64,000 bases of DNA from assembly GCF_001306135.1 (NCBI RefSeq), contig NZ_LGKP01000025.1:62001-126000 (forward strand), given 5' to 3'. The translations under genes were made by a program, and so were the position numbers. Source of the stretch: Herpetosiphon geysericola (GTDB lineage Bacteria > Chloroflexota > Chloroflexia > Chloroflexales > Herpetosiphonaceae). This document shows, in pieces, positions 49,638-54,551 of the stretch. The notes beneath the pieces were generated by a model. It was not told the DNA's origin and did not search any database. It was given only the letters and a program-made list of their open reading frames with translations. Within the stretch, counting starts at the first letter, position 1; every line of letters starts with the position of its first letter.

Positions 49638-50249
49638 ATGATATATAGTATCAATATGCAAACAATAATGCCAAATTATGCTTTACCAAAGGCTGTTCAG
49701 CAGGCAGGCCGACCATTATTCGAGCAACAATGTTGGTGTTGGGGCCACGATGTGCGGCGCGGTGCAGGTAATTTGCTGCTGGAATATGGCGCTGAGCGCA
49801 GCCGCGTGCCTGCTGAGCAACGAGGGAGCAGCAATTATCGCTTTCAGCTTGGTAATGGGGCGACGCTCGATTTGTGGGGTTGGGGCTTGTGGTATGGCGA
49901 TGGCTATCCCGCAAGTTTGTTTTTGCGCCGCGACAAGCTGCAAATTGGCTTGATCGATCGGGCTGCGCCGCTGTGCAATGTTTGGTCGCTGAGTGCGGTG
50001 CCGCCAGTCCGCATGCCTGGCAATTTGAACGAATGGTTGCGCATGACCAGTCTACTTTGTCATTGTTGTACGTGGATTGCAAGCTACGAGCAATGGGTTT
50101 TGAGCCATGCTGGATTAACGTATCGCCAAAATTGCCTTGCAGATTGGAACAAACGCGCCCTGCCAGCCCACGAGATGGCTGAGCGCTGGCAACAACTCCA
50201 CGAGTTAATTGTTGCCAGCCAATTAACCTCAAACCTTGTGCTTGCTTAG
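49638..50249 (+). CDS. Hypothetical protein rich in Trp and Cys
   Basis: A 203-residue open frame without a recognisable family. It is rich in Trp and Cys (CWCWGHDVRRGAGNLL, LWGWGLWYGDGYP, LCHCCTWIASYEQWV). Three in-frame ATGs (49638, 49656, 49668) precede the conserved-looking part and none has a ribosome site, so the start is uncertain. A 193-codon frame on the other strand overlaps it; I prefer the plus strand because its 4-nt stop overlap with folD matches four other convergent pairs here. Confidence 0.55.
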   Translation: MIYSINMQTIMPNYALPKAVQQAGRPLFEQQCWCWGHDVRRGAGNLLLEYGAERSRVPAEQRGSSNYRFQLGNGATLDLWGWGLWYGDGYPASLFLRRDKLQIGLIDRAAPLCNVWSLSAVPPVRMPGNLNEWLRMTSLLCHCCTWIASYEQWVLSHAGLTYRQNCLADWNKRALPAHEMAERWQQLHELIVASQLTSNLVLA

Positions 50250-51106
50250 GCTTGTTCGGCCAACCATTGGGCTGCTTGTAAGGTATTTTGCAGCAGCATC
50301 ATATTGGTGACTGGGCCAGTACCGCCTGGCACTGGGGTGATTGCGCTGGCAACCTTGCTGGCGCTTTCCCAATCGACATCGCCAACCACTTGACCTTCAG
50401 CTACTTCGTTGATACCAAAATCGAGCACGACCGCACCTGGCTTGAGCATTGCGCCAGTTACCAAGCCAGCCTTGCCAACTGCTGCCGCCACAATATCGCC
50501 TTGGCCAATCACTTCGGCCAAATTGGCAGTGCGCGAGTGGCAAATTGTTAAGGTGGCATGGCGGGCCAGCAACAATTGGGCGAGCGGTTTGCCCACCACA
50601 TTCGAGCGCCCCACCACGACGGCATGCTTGCCAGCCAAACTAATTTGATAGCGATCGAGCAAGGCCATGCCGCCAGCAGGTGTATTTGGTACCAAAGCAG
50701 GCAAGCCTTGGGCTAAGCGGCCAGCGTTGGTTGGGTGCAAGCCATCAACATCCTTTTGCGGATTCAGCGCGGCAACCGCTCCATCAGCAGAGAGCTGGCT
50801 GGGCAAGGGCATTTGAATAATGATGCCATGGATGCTGGGATCGTTGCTGGCTTGCTGAATTGCCGCTTCTAAGGTCGTTTGATCGCAGGTTTCGGGCAGA
50901 AGGTGTAGCGCAAAACCAAAGCCAACTCCTTCACACGAGCGGCGAATTGAACGCACATACCAATCGGAGGCAGCATTACCCGCCACTTGAACCACGACCA
51001 ATTGGGGAACATAGCCAGTGCGAGCCTTGAATTCAGCTGCTTGTTGGCTGATCTGAGCCTTCAATTCCTTCGCTAATACGCGACCATCAAGCAAAAGCGC
51101 TGTCAT
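50246..51106 (-). CDS. folD: FolD-like methylenetetrahydrofolate dehydrogenase, cyclohydrolase lysine lost
   Basis: A 286-residue FolD. NADP site (GRSNVVGKPLAQLL), C-terminal PVPGGTGPVTN and the IIIQMPLPS and KDVDGLHP motifs align well with E. coli FolD. However, the catalytic Lys54 of the motif YVxxK is Ile54 here (WYVRSIRRSC). That lysine is essential for the cyclohydrolase half-reaction, so this enzyme should be only a dehydrogenase. The gene lies 57 nt downstream of fchA, whose product can supply the missing step. AAAGGATGTT precedes ATG 51106. Confidence 0.93.
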   Translation of the reverse strand: MTALLLDGRVLAKELKAQISQQAAEFKARTGYVPQLVVVQVAGNAASDWYVRSIRRSCEGVGFGFALHLLPETCDQTTLEAAIQQASNDPSIHGIIIQMPLPSQLSADGAVAALNPQKDVDGLHPTNAGRLAQGLPALVPNTPAGGMALLDRYQISLAGKHAVVVGRSNVVGKPLAQLLLARHATLTICHSRTANLAEVIGQGDIVAAAVGKAGLVTGAMLKPGAVVLDFGINEVAEGQVVGDVDWESASKVASAITPVPGGTGPVTNMMLLQNTLQAAQWLAEQA

Positions 51107-51120
51107 AACATCCTTTACAT

Positions 51121-51145
51121 AAAAAAGCGGAGCTTGTGCTCCGCC
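51121..51145 (-). terminator. Hairpin between fchA and folD
   Basis: GGCGGAGC, loop ACAA, GCTCCGCT, then TTTTTT on the minus strand. folD starts 15 nt later, so it is probably partial and sets a lower folD dose. Confidence 0.7.
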
Positions 51146-51163
51146 AGCGTTGGAAACCAATTT

Positions 51164-51796
51164 TTAGGCTTGTAGTTGTTGATTGACCAAGGCCATTATT
51201 GCCTCGGTATCGTCGTGCAGAGTAGCGGTGAGTTTAGCAACCTCGGCCCGCGTTTCGCGCACATAAAACTGATCTTCAAGCGAATTCAGGTTGATTTCGA
51301 CATTGAGCAAGGCGCTACGTACAGCAGCTTGCGCTAAAAGTACTGCCACGCCAACATCGCTGACCGCAGCCGAATTACCTTTTTGGGCAGCTGGGCTACA
51401 GAGCGGCAAAATCGCAGCGGCAGCTTGGGCCGTGCGCAATGGCACATCGGTGGCAATTCTGGTTGCTGCTTGAATTGCATCGCGGCGAATTGCAATATCG
51501 GCGCTGGTTTCGCGCGGCAATTTATAGGCCACACTCAAGCGCCGAAATGCCTCAACATCAGCCTCGGCCAGCTCTTGCAACTCGCGACGCAACGATTCTG
51601 AGCGATCCATCAAGGCCCGTATTTCATCCTCGACCTCGGCGTATTTCTTCTTGCCAAGCGTCAGTGAACAAACCATTGAAATCAAGCCTGCGGCCATTGC
51701 CCCAGACACGGCTGCAACGCTCCCGCCGCCTGGTACTGGCTCTTTAGTTGCAAGCTGATCCAAAAATTCGGTGATTGGCACCTGTAATAGGGTCAT
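51164..51796 (-). CDS. fchA: Methenyltetrahydrofolate cyclohydrolase (FchA) / formiminotransferase-cyclodeaminase family
   Basis: A 210-residue protein of the cyclodeaminase family. The N-terminal PVPGGGSVAAVSGAMAAGLISMVCSLTLG block and the helix-rich remainder (IAIRRDAIQAATRIATDVPLRTAQAAAAIL, GNSAAVSDVGVAVLLAQAAVRSALLNVEINL) match FchA of methylotrophs and acetogens, which opens methenyl-THF to 10-formyl-THF. Cyclodeaminase is the alternative, but no histidine-degradation gene is near, and folD follows. AAGGAGG precedes the ATG. Confidence 0.88.
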   Translation of the reverse strand: MTLLQVPITEFLDQLATKEPVPGGGSVAAVSGAMAAGLISMVCSLTLGKKKYAEVEDEIRALMDRSESLRRELQELAEADVEAFRRLSVAYKLPRETSADIAIRRDAIQAATRIATDVPLRTAQAAAAILPLCSPAAQKGNSAAVSDVGVAVLLAQAAVRSALLNVEINLNSLEDQFYVRETRAEVAKLTATLHDDTEAIMALVNQQLQA

Positions 51797-51885
51797 AACG
51801 ACCTCCTTGGTGTTGAATCAAGTTCATGCTGATCGTACCACATCTCGGCAGCTGTGCGGTTGTTTGCTAGGCCATGCGTAGCCGC

Positions 51886-52557
51886 CTAAAGTGGGCCAGA
51901 CTTGATCATATACAACAAGACACCAAGGCATAAATAGGTGCCATAGGCGATATAGAGCGTGCCTTCGCCTCGAATTTGGCGAACCACTAAAATTCCAAGT
52001 GAGGCGATTCCTGCCAAGCCCATGCCATACATAAGCACAGCGCCAAGATGGCCCCAACCAACCGTTGCGCCCATCAAAAAGGCCAAATATACATCACCCA
52101 AACCAAACGGCGCATCGGTATCGGGGTAAAGCAGAATTGAACCAGCAAAAAAGAGCAAAAACAAAAGCCCTGCAATCAAGGCCCCAATCAGCGAAGCTTT
52201 GAAACTAATGGTTAAAAAAGCCGAGCCAATTAATGCGACAATCGTTGCAATCAGCACCAACAGCACATCAATCAGGCGCACTTTCCAATCGACGGCGCCA
52301 ATCACAATAAAAACCAAGCTCATTGCATACCAATAAATGCCCCGCAGCGAAAGCCCATAATCGCGATAACAAATCCATGCCATCAACCCACTCGTGGCTG
52401 CAATCAGTAACCCAACCCATGTTGGCCCGCCAAGCAATGGGTGACGTGGCGTTGGCAAAGGGTTCGCAGCTTTCGGATCGGTGGCGATTTGGGTAATCCA
52501 CGGGTTTAACCCAAAGCCAATCGCGATCCCAACTACAATCACAAGTGCTGACAACAT
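51886..52557 (-). CDS. A24 prepilin-peptidase-like membrane protease
   Basis: A 223-residue membrane protein with about seven helices. The two aspartates of the aspartic protease are in IVIGAVDWKVRLID and FGLGDVYLAFLMGA (GxGD). It lacks the N-terminal methylase and cysteine zinc site of full-length PilD, so it is the short FlaK/TadV-like form. It lies 7 nt downstream of aroE and is part of the mltG run. No pilin gene is near. Confidence 0.85.
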   Translation of the reverse strand: MLSALVIVVGIAIGFGLNPWITQIATDPKAANPLPTPRHPLLGGPTWVGLLIAATSGLMAWICYRDYGLSLRGIYWYAMSLVFIVIGAVDWKVRLIDVLLVLIATIVALIGSAFLTISFKASLIGALIAGLLFLLFFAGSILLYPDTDAPFGLGDVYLAFLMGATVGWGHLGAVLMYGMGLAGIASLGILVVRQIRGEGTLYIAYGTYLCLGVLLYMIKSGPL

Positions 52558-52564
52558 AGGCTGA

Positions 52565-53386
52565 TTATCCTTGTAGGGCCGCTAAAGCAGCGGTACGCAT
52601 GACTGATAGCGGTGCAGGCTGATCAAACCAGAGGCTAAATGCTAAGCCAGCTTGGCGGACTAACATATCAAGCCCATCGGAATAGGCTGCGCCACAGGCC
52701 GCCGCCGCTTTAAGCAATGGCGTTTGGCGATAGACTGTATCGTACACCATAAGCTTGGCATGGAGTAGGCCTAAATCAAGCGGCGCAGGATCAGTATCCT
52801 TCCAACCAAGCGAGGTTACATTGATCAACAGGCTTGCATTGGCTAAACAATCAGCAACGTGAGAATCGGTGGCTACTAGCGCTTGTTCGTGGGGCAAAAC
52901 CAAAGCTTGAGCACTGCTGAGCGTGCGGTTGATTAGGCTAATCTGCTGGCAACCAGCGTTGCGCAAGGCCCAAAGTGCTGCCCGTGCTGCGCCACCAGCT
53001 CCCAAAATCACCGCTCGTTGGCTGGCTAAATCGATTCCAGCTGCTTGGAGCGAGGCTTGGAGCGCGGGTGCATCGGTGTTGTGGCCAGTCAAACTACCAT
53101 CGATTTCGCGCACGATGGTATTGACAGCTCCAAGCTCTTGGGCGATAGCTACCGTGCGATCAAGCAAGGGCGCGATTGCAACTTTATGCGGCAAGGTTAC
53201 ATTTGCGCCTAACACGCCCGCGGTGCGCAGACTTTGCACGCGGGCGGGCAACTCGGCGGCTAGTGTATGCCAACGTGCATAGTGCTGATTAATAGCAAGC
53301 GCCTGCAATGCAGCATTGTGCATTGCAGGCGAAAGGCTATGAGCGACCGGATCGCCAATGATGCCAAGGGCAGCTATTTGGGACAC
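52565..53386 (-). CDS. aroE: Shikimate dehydrogenase
   Basis: A 273-residue enzyme of aromatic amino acid synthesis. SLSPAMHNAAL binds shikimate; catalytic Lys in NVTLPHKVAI and Asp in GHNTDAPAL; NADP site LGAGGAARAALWAL; C-terminal LDMLVRQAGLAF. It begins at GTG and overlaps the mltG end by 13 nt, so both are cotranscribed. The pairing of mltG and aroE is frequent in many phyla. Confidence 0.95.
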   Translation of the reverse strand: MSQIAALGIIGDPVAHSLSPAMHNAALQALAINQHYARWHTLAAELPARVQSLRTAGVLGANVTLPHKVAIAPLLDRTVAIAQELGAVNTIVREIDGSLTGHNTDAPALQASLQAAGIDLASQRAVILGAGGAARAALWALRNAGCQQISLINRTLSSAQALVLPHEQALVATDSHVADCLANASLLINVTSLGWKDTDPAPLDLGLLHAKLMVYDTVYRQTPLLKAAAACGAAYSDGLDMLVRQAGLAFSLWFDQPAPLSVMRTAALAALQG

Positions 53387-54453
53387 GCCAAAAACTCTTC
53401 TTGAAATTGCAAAAATTCGCTATAGTCATTAGTGAAATTGTGGGTTGGCCGTTCGCCAGCAGGCACACATTTGGTCACAAAATAGGTCACATCCTCATCT
53501 GCTGGCGCTGCGGCTGCTTGCAAAGCAAACAAGCCAGGCGTGCTGATTGGGCCTGGTGGTAGGCCAGGATTGACCCGCGTATTGTAAGGGCCTTCTGCGC
53601 TATTAATTTGCTGCACTGTTAGTTCGTCGAGCTTTGGCCACCAGTTGCCTGGCTCTCCCAAGATATATTGAACCGTTGGATCTGCGCCAAGTTGGTTGCC
53701 TGCAAACTCTGGCTTTAGGCGATTCCAGAAGGCAGCGGCAATGCGTGGCATTTCTTCGTTATTGCTTGCTTCGCGCTGTATAATTGAAGCCATTGTGACC
53801 ACTTCGTGGACAGAGCGTCCGCTGGTGGCACTGCTCAACGGCGAATCGGCCCAGCGAAGTGCGAAGGTATCGAGCATTTTGCGCACAATATCTTCGCTAC
53901 TAGCATCGGAGAAAATGTCATAGGTATCGGGGAAGAGATAGCCTTCTAAGCTGGCGCTATCGGGCAAACTGGCCAAAAAGCTATAGTCGGCCTTGAACTG
54001 CGAGCCATTGCGTGCAACGCTCAAGAAATCATCGGCGCTGACCACGCCAGTCGATTCAATAACGTTGGCAATTTCTTCGATTCGCAAGCCTTCGGGCACG
54101 GTAAAGCGCACAGCGGTGCGCACTTCAGGCGCAACCCGAAACATTTCCAAAATTTGATTGATGGTCATGTTGGGGCTGATTTTGTAGGTGCCCGGGTACA
54201 ATTCTGTTTCAGCGTTGCGTATATCGGCAAAAACGCGGAAGACAATTGCACGGCGAACCAAGCCTTCAGATTCTAGATTGCTGCTAATGACAGCCAAACT
54301 TTCGTTTTGGGCAATCGTAAAATTTTTGGCGACATCGCTATCGCCAGCAGGCGTGGTTAACTCACGCAGAAACAATGTTGCAACACAAGCGACCACGAGT
54401 GCGCCAATGGTGGCAACAATCAACAAAGCTCGAATTAAACGTCTCACAAGCAT
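53374..54453 (-). CDS. mltG: Endolytic murein transglycosylase MltG
   Basis: A 359-residue membrane-anchored enzyme that cuts nascent glycan to end chain growth. N-terminal helix (ALLIVATIGALVVACVATLFL), a LysM-like segment, then YceG domain with catalytic Glu in MASIIQREA and motifs LEGYLFPDTYDI, AEGPYNTRVNPGLPPGPISTPG. First gene of a five-gene minus-strand run with aroE, A24 peptidase, fchA and folD. A promoter TTGTCA-17-TATAAT lies upstream. Confidence 0.96.
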   Translation of the reverse strand: MLVRRLIRALLIVATIGALVVACVATLFLRELTTPAGDSDVAKNFTIAQNESLAVISSNLESEGLVRRAIVFRVFADIRNAETELYPGTYKISPNMTINQILEMFRVAPEVRTAVRFTVPEGLRIEEIANVIESTGVVSADDFLSVARNGSQFKADYSFLASLPDSASLEGYLFPDTYDIFSDASSEDIVRKMLDTFALRWADSPLSSATSGRSVHEVVTMASIIQREASNNEEMPRIAAAFWNRLKPEFAGNQLGADPTVQYILGEPGNWWPKLDELTVQQINSAEGPYNTRVNPGLPPGPISTPGLFALQAAAAPADEDVTYFVTKCVPAGERPTHNFTNDYSEFLQFQEEFLACPK

Positions 54454-54522
54454 CCCTTATTATCTATGGTAGCGTTGGCATATACCAACAATCGGTCGAT
54501 CGCAAACGGCAAAACCTTGGCT

Positions 54523-54551
54523 ATTATAGCCTTGCGTTATCTATTTGACAA
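54523..54551 (-). promoter_or_regulatory. Promoter of mltG
   Basis: On the minus strand TTGTCA, 17-nt spacer, perfect TATAAT; 70 nt before the mltG start. Confidence 0.7.

Follow-up and report, generated by a model that had tools for sequence, protein, structure and literature searches.

Dehydrogenase-only FolD proteins paired with FchA are already known in kind from a few other bacteria. A FolD/FchA/Fhs system has reportedly been described in Clostridium perfringens by Aluri and colleagues in 2016. The enzyme of Peptostreptococcus productus was reported to be monofunctional (PMC6443876), and in Acetobacterium woodii the genes are ordered fhs1-fchA-folD (PMC10472528). In Methylobacterium/Methylorubrum, dehydrogenase and cyclohydrolase are divided between two enzymes (PMC12645577). 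A 1990 paper by Barlowe and Appling, cited in PMC6443876, calls yeast MTD1 (PDB 1edz) a monofunctional dehydrogenase in its title.

The FolD of E. coli and human MTHFD1 and MTHFD2 are bifunctional and have a catalytic lysine, Lys54 in E. coli and Lys56 in human. Gln98 acts jointly with Lys54. In E. coli FolD, cyclohydrolase is undetectable both in the K54N mutant and after deletion of K54-R55, while Q98H leaves about 8% of the dehydrogenase and about 1% of the cyclohydrolase activity (PMC5688156). The K54N strain grows very slowly, spontaneous hydrolysis is held responsible for the survival of K54 mutants, and both K54N and Q98H confer resistance to carolacton (PMC5688156). In the preliminary description of the locus reported here, the lysine was taken to be required for cyclohydrolase and dispensable for dehydrogenase activity. 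The first part stands, the second holds only in part, as K54N keeps only about 19% of the dehydrogenase activity (PMC5688156); natural FolDs with isoleucine at this position must therefore have adapted.

The locus lies in a window of 64,000 nucleotides of Herpetosiphon geysericola (contig NZ_LGKP01000025.1), the whole stretch of DNA that was analysed. Its folD gene (50246–51106, minus strand) encodes a protein of 286 aa, a predicted methylene-THF dehydrogenase without cyclohydrolase activity. The start was placed at a TTG (51160) in the list of open reading frames, but homology starts only at the ATG at 51106, which has AAAGGATG ahead of it; the stop is at 50246. Membership of the FolD/MTHFD family was clear from both Pfam domains, PF00763 with 109.3 bits (curated cut-off 32.8) and PF02882 with 206.4 bits (cut-off 27), and the closest solved relatives were FolD structures. 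Through position 54 no gap is needed to align the protein with E. coli FolD (PDB 1b0a), whose YVASKRK reads YVRSIRR here. The catalytic lysine of the YxxxK motif, the mark of a bifunctional FolD, is thereby replaced by isoleucine (ATT, 50945–50947, minus strand), so that the substitution described earlier is exact to the base. Tyr50, Gln98 (CAA, 50813–50815, minus strand) and the substrate-binding Asp121 (GAT, 50744–50746, minus strand) are all retained, the last two as had been noted before. The Herpetosiphon protein is thus like the E. coli and human enzymes in family, fold, both Pfam domains and these three residues, and unlike them in the lysine. Yeast MTD1 is likewise a FolD-family protein with dehydrogenase activity only, as predicted for Herpetosiphon, but is very distant (42 bits) and NAD-dependent. 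The GRSN and CHSRT stretches of the window FolD resemble the NADP-binding residues of human MTHFD1 (Arg173, Ser174, His196 and Ser197; PMC3368264), which makes NADP the likelier cofactor, and the protein is predicted to be probably NADP-dependent.

Ile54 is common to all sampled Herpetosiphon species and to two more genera of the Herpetosiphonaceae and is therefore not a sequencing slip. With a dN/dS of 0.04–0.05 within the genus, folD is under strong purifying selection. Sequencing error and pseudogene were rejected on these two grounds. A second folD, K54-bearing or other, was sought in the Herpetosiphon genome and none was found, making this the sole FolD. Purifying selection and the retained active-site residues together indicate that some function of the Ile54 protein persists.

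The fchA gene (51164–51796, minus strand; 210 aa) lies upstream, with a gap of exactly 57 nt between its stop and the folD ATG, as reported in the preliminary description. Its assignment to the methenyl-THF cyclohydrolase family also held: an FTCD_C domain (223 bits) covers residues 8–187 of a standalone protein, from which the N-terminal formiminotransferase domains of FTCD are absent. The only NCBIfam family matched was the FchA model NF045657, on which the protein reached 234.8 bits where the cut-off is 275; the full FTCD encoded elsewhere in the genome reached just 112. Among solved structures FchA is closest to the methenyl-THF cyclohydrolase 7vg4, with 160 bits; FTCD follows with 90 and the cyclodeaminase of Thermotoga with 77. 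In having an FchA-type cyclohydrolase as a separate protein, the locus is like Methylobacterium/Methylorubrum, the source of the Fch compared (7vg4); unlike in Herpetosiphon, the partner of Fch is MtdA, and one Methylobacterium FolD checked keeps Lys54. The Herpetosiphon genome has one FolD, one standalone FTCD_C protein (FchA), one full FTCD in a separate frame of 532 aa and one formate-THF ligase, whose gene is located away from fchA-folD, unlike in A. woodii. A role of FchA in the histidine pathway was rejected in view of the separate full FTCD. The genes fchA and folD are closely linked; the stop of fchA even overlaps the start of folD in two relatives (G007 and G009). FolD-FchA fusions were looked for among the fetched loci and none was found.

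The explanation preferred here, to which a probability of roughly 85% is given, is that FolD is a predicted dehydrogenase only and that FchA upstream supplies the methenyl-THF cyclohydrolase. FolD would oxidise methylene-THF to 5,10-methenyl-THF, probably with NADP, and very probably performs this first reaction only, because the lysine needed for the second is replaced by isoleucine. The methenyl-THF would be left unhydrolysed by FolD, and FchA would convert it to the 10-formyl-THF that is needed to make purines and formyl-Met-tRNA; alternatively, FchA could run in reverse together with formate-THF ligase. This ligase counts against the explanation, being another source of 10-formyl-THF in Herpetosiphon. 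So do the FchA score under the curated NCBI cut-off, the Gln98 that the acetogen type mostly lacks, the few class genomes with non-K54 FolD but no FTCD_C match and the small number of changes at residue 54 on the gene tree.

Residue 54 was read in 146 FolD genes of 135 genomes of the class. Lysine was absent from 144 of these, the residue being mostly isoleucine, then leucine, and 71 of the 146 adjoin an FchA gene, all without K54. Among class genomes at least 90% complete, 93 have non-K54 FolD only, and an FTCD_C match was found in 89 of them. Of these 89, 37 have no formate-THF ligase, which leaves FolD and FchA as their evident route to 10-formyl-THF. No FTCD_C match was found in four genomes of this completeness with non-K54 FolD only, three of which also gave no formate-THF ligase; assembly gaps or an overlooked divergent gene may account for the missing match. 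The two K54 FolDs of the class (L032 of G099 and L191 of G063) are on very short contigs (3.7 and 5.3 kb), belong to the K54 clade and were treated as second copies or contamination. Extra FolD paralogues (L230, L241, L242 and L245, from G085 and G086) have a strongly altered YxxxK motif, e.g. RTLDRADQVA and ATIDLMGIMG, which suggests a different function.

The comparison was extended to 138 further Chloroflexota genomes, picked across score ranks and families and not at random. K54 FolD only was found in 79, non-K54 FolD only in 58 and both in one. FTCD_C was present in 57 of the 58 non-K54 genomes and fchA adjoined folD in at least 40, adjacency being detectable only within about 1.7 kb, so that such counts are lower bounds. 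The 79 K54-only genomes had no FTCD_C (45), a long FTCD-sized frame (20), weaker or unlisted matches (13) or, in one case (G306), a standalone FchA-like protein distant from folD. In the genome with both types (G201), a tandem pair of folD genes was seen at locus L361, the first (750–1652) with Ile54 and Leu98, the second (1677–2567) with Lys54 and Gln98, and no FTCD_C match was found in the genome; it is possible that the activities are split between the paralogues or that a mixed dimer is formed. No report on the Chloroflexota-wide extent was found in the titles and abstracts of papers that mention FchA, the cyclohydrolase and Chloroflexi together, and the extent of non-K54 FolD with FchA in this phylum seems to be new.

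Counted as genes and not as independent events, Gln98 is retained in 82 of 83 K54 FolDs versus 122 of 213 non-K54 FolDs; the remaining 91 have Leu, His, Phe and others. This loss fits a release from selection for cyclohydrolase. One Chloroflexia family (f4) combines Ile54 with His98 (L051, L053, L142, L147, L156, L157, L160, L192 and L200), and these changes fall at the same two positions as the E. coli carolacton-resistance mutations. The residue counts also bear on the possibility that FolD is still bifunctional, with another residue or an ordered water in place of Lys54 and FchA only adding capacity. In its favour, Gln98 and Asp121 are retained in the window, and a computational study of MTHFD2 left undecided whether the lysine acts as catalytic base (PMC9173628). 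This is nevertheless unlikely, given the undetectable cyclohydrolase of E. coli K54N, the 91 non-K54 FolDs in which Gln98 is gone and the FchA-family genes that almost always accompany non-K54 FolDs in general.

Outside the phylum, 19 FolDs adjoining fchA in Bacillota, Spirochaetes and Coriobacteria were compared, none with K54. Those of Blautia, Sporomusa, Dethiosulfatibacter, Treponema and a Coriobacterium have Ala54 and nearly always Phe98. The window folD is like this acetogen type of the Bacillota (Blautia, Sporomusa) in adjoining fchA and in the absence of Lys54, and unlike it in having Ile54 and Gln98. Peptostreptococcus productus is a synonym of Blautia productus, so that its reportedly monofunctional enzyme, together with the Ala54 FolD beside fchA in Blautia relatives, calibrates the rule on residue 54. 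K54 FolD does occur with a standalone FTCD_C protein in other contexts (Bacteroidota, Methylobacterium and Ignavibacteria), and Alkaliphilus has one K54 and one non-K54 FolD. The statement that any genome with FTCD_C lacks K54 was rejected as too strong on account of the former three; since K54 is kept in genomes where FTCD_C is unlinked, non-K54 FolD is partnered specifically by the FchA linked to it and not by any FTCD_C protein. In proteobacterial and archaeal metagenome-assembled genomes (G423–G426 and G429; L106, L109, L111, L115 and L119), an FchA relative was seen with no FolD match; another dehydrogenase such as MtdA may be its partner, or the assemblies may be incomplete.

The comparison of residue 54 across genomes that had been suggested beforehand thus gave a uniform answer, with K54 absent from the FolDs beside fchA in the class (71), in the 40 Chloroflexota genomes and in the 19 others. 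A K54 FolD next to fchA, named in the preliminary description as the finding that would speak against a divided FolD, was sought among the two class genes, the 79 Chloroflexota genomes and ten named genomes of other phyla, and was found in none. The genome comparison thereby supports, at the level of sequence, the proposed split of the bifunctional enzyme into a putative FolD dehydrogenase and an FchA cyclohydrolase.

In an unrooted FastTree phylogeny of 211 FolDs, the K54 proteins, including that of E. coli, form one clade with a single exception, and about three changes of state were counted on the tree. The division between K54 and non-K54 FolDs is therefore ancient; with so few independent events, the association of residue 54 with fchA has little phylogenetic independence. 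Adjacency of fchA changed about 19 times on the FolD tree and was present in no K54 row, and an independent-pairs test on the gene tree, with just two to three pairs, had no power. Judged from this tree, the window FolD is a member of an ancient FolD subfamily and not the product of a recent loss in Herpetosiphon. Of the earlier wording that FolD "has lost" its lysine, the absence is confirmed, but not a local loss in this genome, as the state is class-wide and old. On an unrooted tree gain and loss of K54 look alike, and the term loss refers only to K54 being the standard in the E. coli and human enzymes.

A formimino-THF cyclodeaminase as the neighbour of folD, with methenyl-THF hydrolysed spontaneously and the pairing having some other reason, is very unlikely. 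The family PF04961 does include cyclodeaminases, and the survival of E. coli K54 mutants is attributed to spontaneous hydrolysis (PMC5688156), but the K54N strain grows very slowly, FchA is nearer to a cyclohydrolase structure than to FTCD or to the cyclodeaminase of Thermotoga, and the genome has its separate full FTCD. Another suggestion deals with the cause and leaves room for a dehydrogenase-only FolD served by FchA: natural products binding FolD through Lys54, e.g. carolacton, would have selected for loss of the lysine, which FchA made bearable. Resistance of E. coli K54N and Q98H (PMC5688156) and the family with Ile54 and His98 agree with it. It is quite improbable all the same, because the split is ancient, spans anaerobes and aerobes and is shared by anaerobic acetogens, and no link exists between these lineages and a producer. 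A FolD that has left folate catalysis for another role, as absence of the catalytic lysine might indicate, is hardly credible for the sole FolD of the genome, with its dN/dS of 0.04–0.05 and its other active-site residues retained.

The best-scoring NCBI models for the window FolD are every one named bifunctional, so that metabolic models of much of Chloroflexota are likely to credit the wrong gene with cyclohydrolase. Residue 54 combined with an adjoining fchA offers a rule for annotation. The Chloroflexota lineage would provide natural FolDs, predicted to be dehydrogenase-only, in which to study the separation of two activities that shared one active site, and its non-K54 FolDs are predicted to be intrinsically insensitive to carolacton-type inhibitors. 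Rather unlikely is a wider proposal, in which a whole FolD subfamily spread over Chloroflexota would be an obligate partner of FchA, with direct transfer of methenyl-THF between the two proteins replacing the single bifunctional active site, and with natural insensitivity to Lys54-dependent inhibitors such as carolacton.

In the gap between fchA and folD a terminator-like hairpin was located (51126–51145, minus strand; GGCGGAGC-ACAA-GCTCCGCT followed by a T run), immediately ahead of the ribosome-binding site of folD. The position of the hairpin is kept in three genera of the Herpetosiphonaceae with a different sequence, and it was also seen in loci L061, L062, L063, L064 and L003. The whole region has as many terminator-like matches as shuffled sequences (seven versus a mean of 7.5), so the case for the hairpin rests on its positional conservation in the three genera. 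Since there is little space for a promoter between hairpin and folD, it may be a partial terminator, which could set the level of FchA above that of FolD. Convergent with folD, a 203-aa ORF with no Pfam match (49638–50249, plus strand) overlaps the folD stop by 4 nt. The genes mltG (YceG), aroE, a weak prepilin-peptidase-like gene, fchA and folD follow each other in the same direction with small gaps (50246–54551, minus strand) and may form one transcription unit; a promoter-like site with an 11-of-12 match (54551–54523) lies ahead of mltG.
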